From Entophlyctis helioformis (Eukaryota; Chytridiomycota; Chytridiomycetes; Chytridiales; Chytriomycetaceae): a DNA stretch of 64,000 nt. This document shows, piece after piece, positions 34,142 through 44,813 of this stretch. Under the pieces are notes generated by a model. The model was not told the origin of the DNA, searched no databases, and saw only the letters and a list, made by a program, of their open reading frames with translations. Position 1 is the stretch's first letter. Every line of letters starts with the position of its first letter. Location: positions 1-64,000 of the forward strand of contig JAHLKH010000053.1 in NCBI GenBank assembly GCA_025526915.1, written 5' to 3'. Position numbers and translations under genes: made by a program.

Positions 34142-34411
34142 CAGAACGAGAGAATCGAGGGACAGGCAATTCTGTGTTTCCCCATAGAAAACCTTGCGCC
34201 GGCACCTGATTGGTCGGCTGGTTTGCCTCGAATTTTGTTCAATTTGGCATCCAATTTCCAATCGTTTTGAATCCAATTTCATATTCTTGTCCGGATTCCC
34301 AGTCACTCTGAGCAGCCTGCAGTCGATGCTTCTCAAGTCGTGGTCGCTTTGGCGCTGGCTTGTGGACTGCTGAGCCTGTCCAAGGGCAGCAGTTGTTGCG
34401 TGTTGGTAGTT

Positions 34412-35996
34412 TCACGAAGAACTGTCCTGCATTTCCTGTTGCAGCTGTTGGCCTTCTGCGTCCAGGCGGCGCACTTGTGTGTGCTGCTGGGCTGCCTGCT
34501 GCAATGTCCGAACGGGCGACGTCACAGGCGACACAGACGCACTGGCATCTGCTGCTGCTGCTCTCTTCCGCTTGCTTGTCGCTCTTTGGCGGCTGGCTGT
34601 TGGCGTGGCAGCTACAGCAACGGCTGGCTGTCCAGGCTCGCCCGCAAGGTCCTTGCCGTCGTCGAGATTGTCAAGGCACACAGTGTCAACAGAGTCGCAA
34701 CTGTTGACAGCCATCGCACAAGAGGCAGACGAGCTCACCAATGAGGACGTGGATGGATCACTCGGCGTATCGTTGAGCTGCCGCGTATCGTCGAGCTGCT
34801 GTAAGGCATCGCACTTGGATTGATCTGACTTTGAGAACTGTGAGGCGATACACAGAGAATGCCTGCAGCAATTCTGCTCACTCATGTCAACCTCTATCCT
34901 GGCTGCCTTGGTGTAGACAGCATACTCTTTCTGGATGGGATTGCTGATGGATCCCCAGACAAAGATGTTGTATGATTTGTCATACGATGTGTATGTGCTG
35001 TTTGTGCAGTTAGTCTGCTGTGCGGTCAGTGCATACACATCCTATGAGAACATCCTACCGGCCTTTGCAGGATGGCTCAACAAGGAATCCGCGCTGCTTG
35101 ACGTCCATCGACCTGATCTTGAAGATGAGTTGCATCTGTCGTGCGGCTGACATGAACTCTTCCAGGTCTGACTTGTCATTCCGGCCCTTTCCAGTCCGCC
35201 GTAAACTGTCTCGCCACGCGTTAAACAGCTGTGTTGCATGCAATGGTTAGTGCTGATCGTCAAGGATAGTGTGTTGTCTGCATGCTTGTAAGCTTACTTG
35301 CTCTACGGGATAGGACGTAAGCGCGCGATCATACAGGTGCGTAAAGGTCGCTCCTTCTGGGACTGCAAACTCTGCTTTTGGATCAAGTGTCGCAAGCATG
35401 CCCAGATTCTGGTTGTTGGCTGCTGCAAAGACACTCGTCTCGGCAAACTGTCGTGTGAGGTTTGGGAGTGGATTGCACTGCTTATTGTGCGTTGTGGGTG
35501 ATCAGACTTACCTTGTGATGATCGCAGTACTTTGCATAGTGCTCAAGGAGTTGGAGGATGCTGTTCTTGAACGAGGGATCGGATGCAACGCCATGCATCA
35601 CAATGTCAGGATTGCTGGGATCTTTGAGGCACGGGAGCTTGACGAGAAGCTTGTCAATGTCTTTGAGAAGCACCAACAATACTTCACGGCCGCCAGGTTT
35701 CGCCTTGATGGCAAAAGCAGGGACGTTGTTGTTAAGTCATTTTGGCACGAAACTTGTCAGAACCAAGGGGATGCAAGACGCTTGGATGCATATGACGCCT
35801 TTACGCGGGCCGTCTGTGAGCTTGACGAGTGGCAGCAGCGAGTATATTTGGTTTTTCTAGTCCCCAGTGTCATGCTTTCGAATGAACCATTGTCGCAGTG
35901 GAAGCACAAGCTGTTGTCCAGAACCTTTCCTGTTGGGTCGATGGCCTGCGGGTCTGCTTGACTGGGAGCTGGCTCTGTGGTGGCTGCTGCGTCCAT
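34412..35996 (-). CDS. Unrecognised multi-exon gene beside the nuclease locus
   Basis: Supported exons include one ending at 35512 (FKNSILQLLEHYAKYCDHHK), 35447-35298 (50 codons, FAETSVFAAANNQN to SYPVEQ), one from 35228 (LFNAWRDSLRRTGKG, then DLEEFMSAARQMQLI) and a last one ending at 34412 with a basic patch (SKRKRAAAADAS) that looks like a nuclear localisation signal. A possible first exon starts at 35996 (MDAAATTEPAPSQ) and contains CFHC. Splicing between exons 1 and 2 and before the last exon is unresolved. The order of helices in the middle faintly resembles the C-terminal winged-helix part of origin recognition complex subunit 3, but this is too weak to name it. It is divergent from the PIN-Fanzor locus and could belong to the same element or be a host gene. 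Confidence 0.4.
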
Positions 35997-36889
35997 GTCG
36001 TCCTGCTGGTGCACAGCGGCATGTGGTGGCTGTTGCTCGTCCATTCCAACTCTGTCGCCAGAGCACCACTGCCACTGGTGGTGGGATCGCTGTGATTGGT
36101 CGAGCCCAGATCGTGTTGCGGCACTTGCCCAAATGTGCGCCATCAACAGCGAGCACAACACAGGCGACAACACAGCGGCAGCTGACAGGCAGATGGTTCC
36201 GACGGGCGGATGGTTCCGACGGGCACAATGGGCACAGGGAAGCGGGAGAACAAAGGCACCAACCAAGCTGGCGGAAAATTGGGCCAAGCTGCCACGTGGC
36301 AAGTGGATCTGATGCGATAATTGTGGATATGGGCGGCGCTGGGGTTTCTCCCATCCCGACAAACCTCGTTGCGCTTCGCACCACCAACGGCAGCTGACAG
36401 GTGTGTCTGTGTGTGTGTCTGTGTGTGTCTGTGTGTGCCTGCGTGCCTGCATGCCTGTTTGCGTGTGCGTGCGTGTGTGTGTGTGTGTGTGCGTGCGTGG
36501 GCGTGGGCGTGTGCGTGTGCATGTGCATGTGTTGGAGAGGGACGTGTGCATGCAGGCGCAACTGAGCGGCAGGCAGCAGGCTGCACCGATGCACTGCTGG
36601 AAGTAGAAGCGCTTGCTGGTACTGACCATCATGCTGTTCTATGCCCCTGCCTGCCACGCTCTTCACAGCCCAAGACCTCATCAGCCCACAACTGCCCCCT
36701 GCCCAAGACAACCAGCCCACAACTACCGCCTCATCAGCCGCCAGCCCACGACTGCCGCATCTTGCCAATCATAAGTCCCCACTGTTTCGCCGCTGCCGCC
36801 CATTCTGTTCCACCGCTGCCGCGTGCTTTCTTGCAGACACACTCTTCACTGCCACATGCTGACGCCCCCACCACTCGCCTCGACACAGC
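35997..36889. other. Divergent intergenic region with TG/CA repeats
   Basis: About 890 bases between the orphan minus-strand gene and the PIN-Fanzor locus. The stretch 36402-36540 is a degenerate TG dinucleotide repeat with embedded TGCG and TGCC units. Open frames across it are simple-sequence artefacts. No terminal inverted repeat matching the far end of the locus was recognised by eye. Confidence 0.4.
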
Positions 36890-39800
36890 ATGGGAATCAC
36901 CGGATTCGGCCAGTATCCAAGAAGGGGTATTGCAGCGTCGCAATACCCCCCGACGACAAGGTGTCCGGCGCATTGGACGTGGCATTCGGAGCCACCCAGC
37001 CGCACCAGCCTCATCATCAACAGCACCAGCCTCATCAACAGCACCAGCCTCATCAGCCAGCCGCACCCAGCATCATCATCATCCTTGTTGATGTGTTGAG
37101 TGTGTTCTACCCGCAGCTCGCAGCAGCAGCCGCACTTCAGCCGCCATTGTCCATTGGTGAGTGGCTAGCAATCGTCGCACCCATCCTTGAGGCATTCCTC
37201 AAGTCAGTCGGCGACGGCCGGATCATCATCTTCCACGTCGACGGCCAGCACGGCGACTCTGGCATCAAGCAGCAGGCGCATACCAGCCGCGCCTTGAGCG
37301 TCTTGCGCGCAGCGGCCAAGGTCCAGCAGTTCTTTGCCAAACGTGCAACCAATCAAGGGTTTAGACAGCTAGAAATGCAAGTTCCCTGCTCTGTGTTGCA
37401 TGTGGCGATCCTAACTAACAGTCAATGTTGCAGAAAAGAGCTGCAAGCCCTCCTCCATTCATTCACGTTGACACGCGACCATAAGGGCCACATTGCCGAT
37501 GCTCTCAAGATGCTGCTTGGACCCACTTCCCCGCATAGGGTCTGTTGGTGTGCCCACGAGGCCGACGTTTGCATTGCACGCGACGCTGCCGAGTATGCAA
37601 GCCAGCCAAGGTACAGATCGCCATGATATCTGTCTGTTGTGATTGATGGCTGACAATCTGCATCTCACAACAGCGACATTCCCATGGCGGTGATCGCCAA
37701 CGACTCGGACGTCATTTTCCACTGTGCCGGACGTTGTCCTGTGATCACGACACGCATGTACCGCGGCCGCGCCACCAATATCCACACATACAATCACCAG
37801 GGCATTGCGACCGTTGCAGCTGCCCTGGGATTGCGCAATTTCCCGGGCGCCTGCCGACTGGTCGCCGCCCTCGCAAAAAACGACTATCACAATTGTTACG
37901 GGCGAGGTATGTGCGATTCCTGGCTTCATGCTCTGTGTTGTCATCGATCCTGTGGCGTTGACTAACTCGTGTTGCCACTCACATCATCTTGCAGGCATTG
38001 CTGCTGCCGTCAAGTTTGTTAACAAGCAGTTTGACGCCATGGCAAAGAAGCGCGGCTTCAAGAATCCGGCCGACTTCTGTGCGCTGCTTCAAGATCCTAC
38101 GGAGGCCATGGATTTCGCGTACACTGTCGGATTCGCGTACTACAACGACCTGCTGAAGGTTGGAGGCGTGGCTCTTGCCAAAACTTTCCTGAACGCCTTT
38201 GCCGTTTTCATCCTTCACGAGGAATCTGGGGCTTTCGCCAACACGGTCGTCACCCAGACTGGCAACAGCAGTCAACCCACCGCGCCAGTGCCGAGGCAAG
38301 TCTTTGCTTGACTGGTCGAGGACGCTGCATTGTGGATGCATTTGCATGCATAGCACCATACTGACCATCCATTGCTACGTGGAAATGACAGCAGCCAGGC
38401 TGCCAACACGACCACCACGCCCCAAGAACGGTATGTATGCATGTGATCTCTGCGGGTTCTCGCATTACTGACTTATGCTCCTATTTTGATGTCATTTTTG
38501 GATCGTGATGCAGATGCCAGCTGCGTGACAGCTGCGTTCTTGTTCACCCCAAGTCACAGAAACACAACCCCAACTCGATCGCCGTACATCTGACTCTGGA
38601 GGACGTTGAACGGCTTGGCATCGACATTCTCAACACGAGGGAGATAGATGCAGCTTTGGACGAGATCAAGAACTGCCCAATTGCTCTCGACTGCGTCCTC
38701 AAGTACACGGCAGATCGCCTCGCTGGCATGCCAGACAGTGTTGCTGCCCGTGATCTTCTGGCCGAGATCAGCAGGTCGGCGAGCTCGAAACTGTTACGGA
38801 TTGTCCACGAGCAGTCTCAAGCAGCGACAGTACGCGCGACGCTCGAGCCAGTCGATCAGGCTGTTTGGGATGGACACGTAAGTTGCTGCATGTCTCTGAT
38901 GCATGTGCACTCCTCGCCTGGACGTGTCAAACTCAATCCACTGCTCATTGTACAGGGCGCCGCTGAAAGGATGAAGAAGCAGTTGGGCAAGATCGTCAAT
39001 TGTCCATGCAAACCACACCGCCACCTATCGACACCGCGTACGTACTGCTTGCATTGTGATCATGCCAACTCGTCTACTGACAGCACCTTCTTTGCTGAAC
39101 GGTGCTATTCCAGAAACAGATGCGAGAAAGACTCACAGAAAGACCCACAGCAAGCCACGCAGCAAGTCAAGCATCAAGGCAAGGCCATCACCCGAGGCGG
39201 TTCCCCATTGACTGCTGCCGACATCTGCGACAAGGCCGCGGACAGGCTGAACAACCTGAGAAGCCTCACGGATGGCCAACCAGTGACACGCCGCGAGCAG
39301 CTGAAAGCGGCCATCGACTTGCTAGAGTCCATCATCAAGCAAGCCACGGTGCGTCTTCATCTTCACTGGCTGTGTGTGCATGCCATGACTTGGCACGATC
39401 ACTCATTGTTCCACTTGACAGGAGGCTCAACTGCCCAAGCTGCCCGAGCAAGAACCGCCATCTGCCGACGGCCAGGCTGGTCAAGCAGACCGCAAGATCT
39501 TGTATCTCAATCAAGATGCAGACATCCGGACGACGGTCAGTTCTGGTGTTCCATTGTTGCTTGCGTATGCATTGTGTGCACTTGAATGCATTGCTGATCA
39601 TGCATCCAACCTCCACAGGCACGACACCGAATCACCAAGCAACAGGAGGTGGCGAACAAGCAGAAGCGCGAAAAGCAAGCTGCCAAGGCCGCGGCAAACA
39701 AGGCCATCGACAGGAACAAGGAGAGTGCACGCCGGCAAGACCGCCATAAGAAACCAGTGGACCCGAAGCAGACGTACGTGTTGTACACTGTGCCATGTGC

Positions 39801-42800
39801 CTTGGGCATGCTTGCTGACATGTGTGGGCTTTGCAGACGCAAAGGTGGAGCACGAGTGACACAACGTCGGGTTGACAGAAAGGGGGGACGCCTCATGTCA
39901 GGGGCACCCATGACGCTCCCTGCGGCCACCGCCAGCGAGAATCAACAGCCTGCTACAGTCACCAGCGGCAATGATCAACAGCCAGCCGCGGACACGCCCG
40001 ACCATCCCACCACTGACGCACCTGATCCACCCGCTGCAGACGCACCCGACCATCGTAGCATGAGAGTGGAGCTGGAGGTACGATTTAGGATCACCATTCT
40101 GCCTGTCTACATGCATGTATGACTTTGCATTTACTGACATGTTGGCTGGCATGGTGCTCAGGACATGCTGTCCAGTGGCCCGCAGAGTGCCCCGATCTTT
40201 GGCATTCATGCCATCAGGTCATCGGCAGGCTGGACGCGTCCTCTGCTCTCCCAGGACGTCGTCACAAGGGTGCACTCGTTTACCGTCGGTGCGCGGCATG
40301 CTGGCCTTGTCATCATCGGCGCCATCCTCGAAGAGCTACTCGAGCTCGATCAAGACGCACCCCTACCGCCCAAGTACAATATCTACGGCTGGCTTGATGG
40401 CCAGACAACGCGGTACTGCTTCCTGGACGTCGACTTCAAGCAACTCGATGACCTCGGTGACAAGGACGTCATCAAGGGCCTTGGTGGTGTCACAAAGCGG
40501 AGCTCCTGTCTGGCCGATTCACGCTTCGCGAGGGCATCACTGCGCGGGCCATGTACGGACGGAGTCAATACAACCACACGAGCAGGGAACGTTGCTTTGG
40601 GCACCCAGTGAAACTGGCAAAGGGTACGACACTCGAGTGCTGTACGTTCGAGTCGCCGGAGTCGCCCGAGCATGACACCGCCAAGCAGCCCGACGATCAA
40701 CCAGTTGCACCCCAGCCAGCTGTGCCCGATGATCATGGCAAGCCTGAGCAGCCAGCAGCACCAGCACTGGCAGTGCCAACACCAGATGACATTCTCTCGA
40801 TCATCACGACGGATGAGTCGTCCATGGCATCCCTCTTCCGGCACGTGTCGTATGTGTTGACTGGAAGCGGGATGGAGCAGCCGCAGTCCACCATGCTCCA
40901 GCTCAATGCTTGGCTCGTGACCATCGCCCAGCTCATGATCCATCGTTGCTGGACGCCGAGCACGTTGCAGGCCAATGCGACCAAGAGAGCCAACACGACC
41001 AAGAACAATACGCGGCAGAAGGGCACGACCAAGAACGACGCACGGAAGGCCGAGTGGAAGGCAGGTGCGCGGCATCCAACCAGATGGTGGTCGAGCTCGC
41101 ACCCAGACAACGCACAACGGGCTGATGCACAGCAGGCAGCTGTGCCCTATCGGCTTGTCAACACCCTGCTGACCGCAAGCCGCGACATATTCAGCAACCT
41201 GGCGAGGGAGGTGAGCGCCACACTCGCCAAGCACTTCATCGAGAACCGGTCAAAGCTTGCATTGGTCGCAGCCCAGAGAGCAATGCCTGCTGCGACTTCT
41301 GAGCAGATTGCAGCGTGGGTCGATGCCATATTTGCGACCGTTGAGACCACCAAGGTTGCCAGGCGTGCCGCCACTCAGGACACTGCTCAGGCCGCTGCTC
41401 AGGACGCCCCATTGCCGGCCATTGAGGACAATGCCATGGACGACGCCATGGACACCACTCAGGATGCCACCATGGATGACGCCATGGACGCCGCTCAGGA
41501 TGTCGCTCCTCCCGCCCCAACTCTCAAGCGGACCGTGTCACAGCTTCTTCTGGCCACTGATGGCAGTGCATCCAAGAGGCAAAAGGACGAGACTACTGCC
41601 CCTGTCGCCACAGATGCCATGCAAGACACACCACCAGCCGCACAGGATGGGGACGCCATTGAGATCCCGCAAGAGCTGCATCCAATTCGGGCGATTGTGC
41701 GCAGCATGTCAACATCGGACGTTGGACGCTTCTACCAACTCCTCAAGCTTGCTGGCACTTCGGTGATGAAGCTCTGCCCGCAGCCAGCAAGCCGTGATCC
41801 GTTTTCCTCGTCACCGAGGCCACGCTCTTTTGGGCGGTGGTGGGGCACAAAGGGATCGCATGAATGGCAAGCACGATCCTGTCCTCCAAGCATTGCGAGA
41901 GGAGCTCCTGGCCGCAGTTGGTAAGTTGCATGTGTCTATGCCACGTCAATGCTATTTGATGCTGACACTCTACTTTTATCCAAAACTGCAAAGATGGCAC
42001 GTTGACTCTCGAGTCGACCAACGACGACATCCAAAGGGCCTTCAGCAATAGCAAGGAGCTGGCCATCCTCGACATCCTCCTGCCCGGCCTCCGCCCCAAG
42101 AATCGACGCCGTCCAACGCAGGCCGAGGGTGATGAGGCCGCGGTTGATTCTCAGCCTCTGGTGGCTTCAAAGCAAGTGATCAGACAAGGCAGCATCATGA
42201 CGGACGGATACACGGTCTATCAGCTGGCACTGGACTGCCGCACAGACCGTCCAGAGTCGCCTTGGTGTATGTGCCGTGCTTGGATGCTTTGGTGCACGCA
42301 TTGATTCTGACCACTGCCTTGCTCTGCAGGTCCCAACGCGGCGTCTCCAGCCCAGCAGCCCAGTCTTGCGGATGCTGCTGTTGGCATCCTTAATGCCTTG
42401 AATGGTCAATTTATTGAGCCTGACCACATGGACGTCACATGTGAGTTGCTGTGCCAATCCAGACGCGTACTTGTTGTCCACACCAACTGACATGCCATCC
42501 ACAGCCGCCAATCCAGCCGACCCATCAGCCCCAAGCCAAAAGCACCCAATCCTGTAAGCCACTTGCATGCTAAACTTGCGCTTTGGTGCACATGCATTGC
42601 ACATTCCTCACTCATGTCATGGCACGACAGGCCAAGCGCAACTTTAATGCATCCCAGCGACTGCCCAATGTTGCTGATGCCAACAAGCTGCTCGCCGACA
42701 AGGACTTTGTTCGCGTTGTCAGCTTTGATTGGGGCAAGCGGTACCTGTATGGCGCGTCCAGCATGCTGGTCAATGTCAAGGAGGAGACATACACGATGGA

Positions 42801-43797
42801 GTCCAACTACGTGCTCGCCTCTGGCATGGCACGAGCCGAGCACAGCCTTCAGCGGTGGTATGCATGCAATGACTCTGCCACGCGCACTCTTGACAGATCA
42901 ACTCACAGTGCCCGCCTCTTGTGCCAGGCTCAACAATCGATATGCCAAGGCTGCGGACGTCCACAAGGCCATTGCATTCAAGACAGCAAAGCATGCCGAT
43001 CCAACGCCACAGCAGGCGAGGAGCGTTTTGGGATCTTCGCTGCCATGCATACTGCTCGCCATTCCTGAATGCACGGGTACGTTTTCTCTGTTTCTGGATG
43101 TCCATTGACATGACCGCCATGCTGCTTGATCGCCTGCTGATTGCACTGGATGGCATGGCATGGCGTGACATTCCACAGAAGGTCAAGGCCAAGCGGTTCA
43201 CCATGCGCAGCAACAGCACGTCTGATCGCGGAAACGCTCTTGAAGGCATCATGAAGCTGGCAGGATCGACCACTGGCAAGCGCGCATCTGCTGCATCTCA
43301 AGGCTGCTGTGACAAGCCAACAGAGAAGGACATTCCCGTTGTCTGGGCATTTGGCATCGACTTTACAGGCCAAGGTGGCCGGCACGCTGTGTTTGAGAGG
43401 TTTCTCATCAGGCATCTGCGGTCGTCTGGATATGCCTATGTGCGTCTGGATATGCCACCCATCCATCCATCTATCCATCTGTGCACCAACTGACACACGA
43501 TCATGCACACACACACAGATCTACCGCTGCAACGAGAACCTGACCAGCCAGATGTGCCCGCAGTGCAAGCAACGGATCCCATACAAGAACCGCACCAACC
43601 TGCGACGCTACGAGTGCACAGCATGCAAGGCCGTCTACCACCGAGACGTGCTTGGAGCCACCAACATCGGAATGGTCGCACTGGGGCATTTGCTCTTTGG
43701 ACACCGGCCGCTCTACTTGACGCACACGCCAGCCGGTCAGCCTGTCAACAGCATCGCAGCAGTGTCCTCCACAGACACAGCACGTCACTCCATGTGA
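36890..43797 (+). CDS. XPG/FEN-like PIN nuclease joined to a Fanzor-type RuvC nuclease
   Basis: Nineteen exons read in order from 36890 to 43797, about 1,840 residues. The N-terminus (MGITGFGQY) and exons to 38295 have XPG/FEN motifs: ILVDVLSVF, FHVDGQ, HEADVCIARD, ANDSDVIF and KNDYHNCYGRGI, so all the usual metal-binding acids are present. A Lys/Ala linker follows (39619-40077). The C-terminal part is Fanzor/TnpB-like: GSIMTDGYTVYQLALD (about 42190), RuvC-I VVSFDWGKRYLYGA (Asp at 42727), NENLTSQMCPQC (Glu at 43534), CTAC, and HRDVLGATNIG (Asp at 43645). Fanzors are RNA-guided DNA nucleases often carried by transposons. Intron phases agree except for about seven points where one base seems missing. 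One intron (donor 38296) is GC-AG. Two adjacent genes remain possible. Confidence 0.7.
43179..43797 (+). other. Fanzor RuvC-II/III and zinc-ribbon region
   Basis: The last two exons (43179-43439 and 43519-43797) hold WAFGIDFTG, ERFLIRHLRSSGYAY, the Glu in NENLTS, two CxxC pairs (CPQC and CTAC) and the final RuvC Asp in RDVLGATNI. The Glu lies right before the zinc ribbon, which matches the rearranged RuvC-II position described for Fanzors rather than the bacterial TnpB position. The core is uninterrupted here. Confidence 0.8.
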
Positions 43798-44092
43798 CTT
43801 GCAGCACCACCAACACTTTGAATCGGGGCACCTCCCGATCGACCTAACGGGTCACTTTATTCTTACAGAAATGGTGCAAGGCGCTCTGGTTGATGTGCCT
43901 CGCCCGCCTGTCGTCGCATGCTCATTGCTGACTCGAACCTTCCATCGTGTGATGTGCTCGCTTGCCTTCGTCGCCTCTCGCGTTTAATTTAATTCAATGA
44001 TTCTTGGTAATTGTTTGAATGTCGGGCCATTTGCCGGCAAACCGCCGGCAATCAGAAGCCAGTTCTCAAGCTTTGCCCAATTCAAACAACGA
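43798..44092. other. Intergenic between Fanzor locus and DYNLT1
   Basis: About 295 bases containing the hairpin above, then AT-richer sequence (TTTAATTTAATTC near 43985) and a GCCGGC-containing palindromic patch (about 44029-44050). This probably includes the right end of the mobile element and the DYNLT1 promoter, but no element boundary can be fixed. Confidence 0.35.
43822..43839 (+). other. Perfect hairpin downstream of the Fanzor stop
   Basis: An ATCGGG / CCCGAT inverted repeat with a six-base loop starts 25 bases after the stop codon at 43797. Guide (omega) RNAs of TnpB/Fanzor systems usually cover the 3' end of the gene and the sequence just beyond, so this is a candidate structural piece. 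It could equally be a chance hairpin. Confidence 0.3.
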
Positions 44093-44813
44093 ATGGACGA
44101 CTTGCAAGGTGTCGAGGAGAAGGCCTTTGTGGTGGACGAGGTCAACAACGTCATCAAAGAGGTGAGTCGACGCTGCCTGCATGCGTCGGCTGCCACGCAT
44201 GCCCCTGCACTGACCCGCCCGCACTGGCTGCATGGCTGCATGGCTGCCTGGCTGCCTGGCTGCATGGACGAGCGCAGTCCATCGAAAACACGATCCAGAA
44301 TGCAGCGTATCACCACAACAAAGTCGGCCAGTGGAACTCGAACATTGTCGAGCAGACTCTCAAGCGTCTGACTGGCCTCAACAAGCCATTCAAGTACATT
44401 GGTAAGCCTGCTGCCGCTCTCGTTGCGTTCTTTTGCCAGCGCGGCGTGCAAACTGCCGTGCGAGCTGTCGTCGCTGTTTGACGTGACTGCTGGGCTCGCC
44501 GGCCGTCCCTGGTCACGCTTGTCGCGCTCAGAGTCGCGTTGTTGCTGCATCGGTGGTGCCTGGCATCATCTGCATGGCACTGACCGGCTGCACGCATCGC
44601 AGTCACATGCACCATCATGCAAAAGAACGGCGCTGGTCTGCACTCGGCGTCTTCGTGCTACTGGGACAACTCGAGTGATGGTTCGTTGCATGCAGCGTCC
44701 GCCCGCCCGAATGCCGCTCACTGACGTGGCCCATATGGACAGGCAGCACAACCTACAAGTACGACTCCAAGACAATGTATGTCATTGTCAACGTGTTTGG
44801 TCTCGCCATCTAG
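44093..44813 (+). CDS. DYNLT1: Dynein light chain Tctex-type
   Basis: Four exons (44093-44161, 44278-44401, 44603-44680, 44743-44813) join in phase to 113 residues, the same length as human DYNLT1. Recognisable segments are [51 protein letters not shown] and a C-terminus ending FGLAI. The protein is a dimeric light chain of cytoplasmic and axonemal dynein that links cargo or intermediate chains to the motor. Introns are short and canonical. The gene converges on ETFB, with about 225 bases between stop codons. Confidence 0.95.

Follow-up and report, generated by a model that had tools for sequence, protein, structure and literature searches.

A multicopy transposable element of the chytrid Entophlyctis helioformis carries a gene that probably joins a PIN-type nuclease half to a Fanzor-type half

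Can a Fanzor, a kind of nuclease known so far as a single nuclease, share one transposon-borne polypeptide with a second nuclease of the XPG/FEN type? A locus on contig JAHLKH010000053.1 of Entophlyctis helioformis raises this question. We analyzed a stretch of 64,000 nucleotides of this contig (C53 of a 29.57-Mb, 482-contig genome), which we call the window. An earlier reading of the letters alone, here the sequence-only reading, had proposed that an XPG/FEN-type PIN nuclease is fused there to a Fanzor RuvC nuclease, and its main doubt was whether the locus is one gene or two. We consider it likely that a multicopy DNA transposon has left a damaged copy of itself here, that its 19-exon gene encodes a PIN-linker-Fanzor protein of about 1,830 to 1,845 amino acids in intact-looking copies, and that its right end encodes a candidate omegaRNA.

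The window locus belongs to a multicopy transposable element of E. helioformis, of which it is a decayed copy. A single mobile element does carry both parts, as the sequence-only reading had suspected; its assumption of a chytrid was also right, whereas the repeated nature of the element had escaped it. When the window was compared with other copies by blastn, the left limits of similarity fell at 34181 to 34212 and the right limits at 44038 to 44053; the three copies fetched far enough (C1, C13, and C50, named by contig) aligned from 34181 or 34212 to 44038 or 44053. Six copies are 91.7 to 92.5% identical to the window locus and C178 is 81% identical, and the genome holds more than 100 more diverged related loci; locus numbers here are lower bounds, the best candidates alone having been scored. 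The left end starts with GAGGG in eight of the 10 left flanks read (the exceptions are C162 and C50), and right ends read ...CCCTATTGCCCACCCCTC (...CCCCTC). In the window copy, the final ~38 bp of the right end that other copies possess is missing or altered. C178 is flanked by a perfect 9-bp target-site duplication, AGAGTAAGC, and C121 by a near match. The element thus has the terminal inverted repeats and target-site duplication of a eukaryotic transposon that carries a Fanzor. That it belongs with a Mutator-like element (MULE-like) transposase class is only a guess from the 9-bp duplication. The left arm contains the remains of a minus-strand gene, which could be those of a transposase: part of it is 92 to 94% conserved in many copies, including copies of other families, the copies read contain stops, and Pfam gave no match of note. 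The same right flank is found in the copy pairs C162/C298, C121/C312, and C22/C169, and segmental duplication may therefore account for the spread of some copies.

We built the gene model by hand from reading frames, splice sites, and comparison of copies, and projected it on eight aligned copies (window, C1, C50, C125, C13, C130, C298, and C178). Automatic per-copy splice models had spurious introns and disagreed with one another, and we discarded them. The model consists of 19 exons and 18 GT-AG introns and runs on the plus strand from an ATG at 36890 to a TGA at 43797 (Table 1). Seven of the eight copies have GT-AG at every intron; the diverged C178 departs at three of them as projected. 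Two splice choices are possible between exons 4 and 5, and both keep the frame: one uses the GT at 38300 as donor, the other a GC 4 bases upstream together with a correspondingly earlier acceptor. The encoded order is a PIN nuclease, a fast-evolving linker of about 400 amino acids, and a Fanzor/TnpB half. The exons that the sequence-only reading had named do lie on this strand, where it had put them and in the order it had given. It had also described the middle of the locus as free of stops. One continuous spliced frame is indeed present in C1 (1,845 amino acids) and C50 (1,829 amino acids), but the window copy itself is not intact: single-base deletions in several exons give it 33 internal stops under the common model, of which the first comes after 69 residues. 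Among the eight copies, many 60-bp bins have an excess of substitutions at third codon positions, a clear one between 40.2 and 41.8 kb, and the ratio of nonsynonymous to synonymous substitution rates (dN/dS) is moderate overall, at 0.35.

Table 1. Features of the element copy in the window (positions in the window)
Feature	Position	Strand	Remarks
Whole element copy	34157-44038		left TIR-like (terminal inverted repeat-like) end GAGGG at 34157, by eye
Left-arm gene remains	34250-36150 (approximate extent)	-	no recognized domain
Exons 1-4	36890-37358, 37434-37610, 37674-37906, 37995-38299	+	XPG/FEN-like PIN half; exon 4 end ambiguous by 4 bases
Exons 5-8	38399-38430, 38514-38877, 38956-39037, 39084-39348	+	linker; exon 5 start 38392 with alternative exon 4 end
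Exons 9-11	39422-39535, 39619-39773, 39837-40077	+	linker; for exons 5-11, homologous exons with same phases in C294, C172
Exons 12-15	40162-41920, 41994-42266, 42330-42440, 42505-42553	+	Fanzor N-terminal part and putative WED/REC (our presumption)
Exons 16-19	42631-42857, 42928-43076, 43179-43439, 43519-43797	+	RuvC and zinc ribbon; PF07282, motifs
Conserved 3' block	43820-43857	+	GAATCGGGG..CCCGATCGACC..GGGTCACTT, two hairpins; candidate omegaRNA scaffold
AG-free right-end stretch	43858-44038	+	follows donor-like AAGGTRAG (absent in the window copy), with conserved GCTGAC; candidate intron, acceptor would lie in host DNA

Is the junction between the halves kept in copies of other families? 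We read three copies of distant families, C6, C294, and C172 (C6 and C294 share 94% identity). In diverged copies the PIN exons are 32 to 58% identical, and those junction intron phases that were checked are retained. When the exons of C50 were searched one by one, exons 1 to 4, 6, 9, 11, 12, 13, and 16 to 19 had matches in both C294 and C172, exon 7 in C172 only, and exon 8 in C294 only, with a weak match for exon 14 in C172; exons 5 and 15 are too short for such a search. Matches of the small exons are weak (C294, exon 8 E value of 0.12 and exon 11 of 0.51; C172, exon 9 E value of 0.016 and exon 11 of 0.003). In every matched exon of exons 1 to 12, codon positions 1 and 2 are better conserved than position 3. 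Reading C294 and C172 base by base and by eye, we found exons 8 to 12 with the same junctions, in phases 0, 0, 2, and 0.

The two halves also go together across the genome. The Fanzor N-terminal exon (exon 12) lies downstream on the same strand at 69 of the 95 listed PIN loci, at a distance of 2.4 to 3.0 kb in 64 of these 69; the other 26 have no listed exon 12 within 5.5 kb in any orientation. For this count, 130 exon 12 loci were typed from 150 matches, with second fragments excluded. Among the matches listed, at least 56 of the 95 PIN loci have a RuvC or right-end match 2 to 13 kb downstream on the same strand. For PIN loci with no listed RuvC match, we asked for seven downstream stretches, two of which ran off contig ends, and RuvC was present in all five obtained, which speaks against the PIN-only families that we had considered. 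The PIN locus on C60 has a RuvC match on the opposite strand 11 kb away and none downstream among the matches listed. Since the joining exons and their phases are conserved in distant families, the doubt about one gene or two leans clearly to one. On this comparative sequence evidence the one-gene fusion is well supported, and a single gene very probably encodes both halves.

The Fanzor half is readily recognized by its zinc ribbon. In the profile check suggested by the sequence-only reading, the C50 protein matched Pfam PF07282 (Cas12f1-like TNB, or OrfB zinc ribbon) with an E value of 6.2e-11 and 42.7 bits against a cut-off of 26.3, and it has the CxxC...CxxC pattern; a match to NCBIfam guided_TnpB (E value of 1e-6) fell below the cut-off. 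Its RuvC residues are D-E-D, and its motifs are FDWG, E-x6-CxxC, CxxC, and HRD. The window, C1, and C50 share NENLTSQMCPQC, in which the RuvC-II glutamate is at the alternative site, six residues ahead of the zinc finger. Both this pattern and the near-exclusive DPG of Fanzors are defined in the available portions of Yoon et al. (2023; PMC10711439). Searched against PDB sequences, neither the A3 profile nor the Fanzor half of C50 returned a Fanzor chain, and the latter gave weak or chance TnpB-like rows. We assigned this half to the Fanzor kind, as a variant, because the zinc ribbon and the alternative glutamate are present and the DPG is not. Like Fanzor1 (e.g., SpuFz1 of Spizellomyces punctatus), it has the alternative glutamate, the zinc ribbon, and the RuvC-III Asp, resides in a eukaryotic DNA transposon, and is followed by a conserved 3' end that folds into hairpins. 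It differs in its DWG where Fanzor1 has DPG, in the extra N-terminal PIN half, in a protein length of ~1,800 amino acids against ~600 for Fanzor1, and in the place of the candidate scaffold, ~220 bp inside the right end. Another likeness is to those TnpBs that have a rearranged RuvC-II glutamate and a non-DPG RuvC-I; they too have D-x-G, with x not P, and the alternative E, as far as the same portions of PMC10711439 describe them, whereas the gene of the element is eukaryotic, intron-rich, and fused to a PIN-type domain.

The PIN half is harder to place. XPG/FEN nucleases have seven acidic residues in a set order and an MG(I/V) start. The PIN half has this start and, in the same order, D61, D111, E192, D194, D219, D221, and D279 (C50 numbering), all invariant in six aligned rows from at least three families. 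Five of the seven positions aligned with host FEN1 (EAD/DSD/NDY versus EAE/DMD/CDY). Compared by hhalign with host FEN1, EXO1, and XPG, the PIN half gave an E value of 5.7e-4 at 30% probability with the active-site residues aligned; one unrelated control gave 0.42. The best Pfam family is XPG_I_2 (PF12813, "XPG domain containing"), which we take to be linked to asteroid. It matched three of the six rows, with a best E value of 3.6e-4 (A1), below the cut-off, and it did not match the C50 PIN half; P0001 and P0002 match it over EAD...D(S/T)D...NDY, the former with 17.2 bits against 24.2. Whole-genome searches with PF00867 (E <=10) and PF12813 (E <=1) listed no exon of the elements read, and two other loci that pass the XPG_I_2 cut-off lie outside these elements. 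A further XPG_I_2 match, at C38:89474-90367, lies in a 771-amino-acid open frame a few kilobases beyond the right end of an element copy and may be an ordinary host gene. Unlike FEN1, EXO1, and XPG, to which it has little overall sequence similarity, the PIN half is tied to an RNA-guided nuclease in a transposon. Judged by sequence, the XPG/FEN assignment made by the sequence-only reading is a remote one: the PIN half is related to XPG, but distantly.

Several observations weigh against the reading of a two-nuclease fusion in a transposon. A target-site duplication is not evident at C1, C13, C125, and C130, where flanks were compared. Internal stops also interrupt C125, C13, C130, C298, and C178 (some of those in the diverged C178 may be projection artifacts), leaving two of the eight modeled copies unbroken. 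The linker evolves fast, with a dN/dS of 0.75 between C1 and C50, and in parts of it, such as 38.6 to 38.7 kb, the third-position excess is weak. Searched alone, exon 10 of C50 found no match in C294 or C172, exon 7 none in C294, and exon 8 none in C172; exon 11 of C172 carries a frameshift, and intron 11 of the window's own family contains a stop if unspliced. For the PIN half, no match to Pfam XPG_N, XPG_I, or XPG_I_2 reached the cut-off, a PDB sequence search returned nothing, and the AlphaFold model of P0002 is poor (predicted local distance difference test score, pLDDT, of 54). Foldseek and VIA lists for this poor model included the 5'-nucleases XRN1, ExoIX, T4 RNase H, plastid exonuclease 1, and Rat1 among unrelated folds, several of which ranked higher, and we did not use them as proof. 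For the Fanzor half, RuvC-I is FDWG and not DPG in the window, C1, and C50, and the RuvC part has a dN/dS of 0.57. Finally, the deposited gene models put the halves in separate proteins, and we found none that spans both; these models look fragmentary. P0002 (349 amino acids) seems to stop within intron 4, and P0005 to P0009, which model RuvC, are separate from it.

We then have to consider two adjacent genes within one element. The PIN gene would end at the intron 4 stop, where P0002 appears to end, or near exon 10, and the Fanzor gene would have a start of its own, for example at the Met of exon 11 or exon 12. The separate deposited models suit this arrangement, as do two features common to C50, C294, and C172, an ATG where exon 12 begins and a Met in exon 11, and the weak constraint on the linker. 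However, exon 6 is homologous between families (37 to 38% amino acid identity), has no common start codon by eye, and would have to be reached by way of exon 4-5-6 splicing. The phases of exons 8 to 12 are kept, and similarity also extends to residues ahead of the exon 11 Met. Intron 11 of C294, C6, and C172 keeps the frame open, and the linker would be read on into the Fanzor half with or without splicing; the distance from the PIN exons to exon 12 is tight at nearly all paired loci. We therefore consider two genes unlikely and retain the single spliced gene, which would be read as one transcript.

Given one gene, its N-terminal half could still have a PIN-like fold without being a flap nuclease, for example as an RNA-binding or inactive relative, and the fusion would then add binding rather than cutting. 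The remote similarity to the XPG family and a structural model too poor to decide are both consistent with this idea. It is nevertheless quite improbable, given the seven acidic positions that stay invariant across at least three families and the PIN-half dN/dS of 0.18. It is most improbable that the element is a relic parasite in which the fusion arose once and was copied along without any function of the joint protein, recent amplification giving the appearance of constraint: six of the eight modeled copies are broken and the overall dN/dS is moderate, but both halves retain their active-site residues across families with saturated fourfold sites in exons 1 to 12, which needs long selection.

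The element families have a mosaic past. Between C50 and either C294 or C172, agreement at fourfold-degenerate sites is 12 to 53% per exon in exons 1 to 12 and 72 to 100% in exons 16 to 19, some exons having few such sites. The right end is likewise highly similar between the window and C294 (L030) or C172 (L031). This contrast indicates much later exchange or conversion between families for the RuvC exons and the right end than for the other parts. If RNA-guided cutting were followed by repair from another copy, this pattern would result, but it would also result from ordinary ectopic conversion.

What does the right end contain? The 3' block, GAATCGGGG.ACCTCCCGATCGACC..GGGTCACT, is nearly invariant in 19 of the 21 stretches examined and is absent in those of C40 and C6. 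Most of seven copies tried fold it into two hairpins. Rfam found nothing in the window. A hypervariable segment follows this candidate scaffold, and we had considered it as a stored guide; we dropped the idea because the segment forms a hairpin in most of the seven folded copies. AAGGTRAG follows the block in 17 of 19 stretches; the exceptions are the window, which has no such sequence, and C294, whose stretch stops short of it. From there on, 4.3 to 7.1 AGs would be expected per copy, but 17 of the 18 copies measured have none and C13 has one; in 14 of the 18 the stretch extends to the end of the element, and the copies are related and hence not independent. Shuffling the C1 stretch left no AG in 10 of 20,000 trials. 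In the flanking host DNA, 8 of 27 distinct right flanks start with AG (1.3 expected, P of 3.5e-5 in a test made post hoc), and 15 of the 27 have an AG within the first five bases (5.0 expected). The flanks came from 39 stretches, less nine without a recognizable end and three duplicate flanks. By these sequence features, the right end resembles an intron that would take its acceptor from host DNA. One point against this is the position of the conserved GCTGAC, ~140 nt before the end; the corresponding distance in introns of the gene itself is shorter.

How might such an element use two nucleases? Most likely, an RNA transcribed from the right end and its flank would guide the Fanzor half to cut the empty or homologous site. 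The PIN half would remove flaps, either at this break or at the joint of the transposon, and repair would copy the element back in. We put forward only tentatively that the protein is an active dual nuclease acting in element retention. A more specific version is rather unlikely: here the guide of this dual-nuclease transposon protein would be attached by splicing of the scaffold to the host flank, the Fanzor half would target the empty site, and the PIN half would process the break. It would give a place to the scaffold, the short variable hairpin, AAG/GTRAG, the branch-point-like GCTGAC, and an AG supplied by the host.

A protein database search with the whole 1,829-amino-acid protein gave nothing among 7,988 candidates, and the four matches of the PIN profile and five of the RuvC profile all belong to E. 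helioformis. Viral contigs, searched with two short peptide patterns per half, held no relatives of either half. The open-access literature on Fanzor or TnpB with FEN1, XPG, fusion, or chytrids, among the entries listed, describes no such fusion, nor do the accessible portions of three Fanzor papers (PMC3627910, PMC10711439, and PMC10432273) mention one.

In the window, a gene at 44040-44800, presumably a Tctex-type dynein light chain gene, immediately adjoins the right side of the element, and the minus strand at 45.3 to 46.9 kb holds what we take to be an electron-transfer flavoprotein beta-subunit gene. Elsewhere, a remnant of the RuvC/zinc-ribbon exon of the element (L039; C2 near 291 kb) is found on the 3' side of the host FEN1 gene, close to it and in antisense orientation.

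If the fusion is real, an RNA-guided nuclease and a flap-type nuclease have been kept on one polypeptide across diverged lineages, which would hint at the events that follow the cut. A role in transposon retention would then be directly testable, and the right end offers a specific and testable idea of how a guide may be attached. Saturated 5' exons standing next to near-identical RuvC and right-end modules are, in addition, a natural record of module exchange between families.

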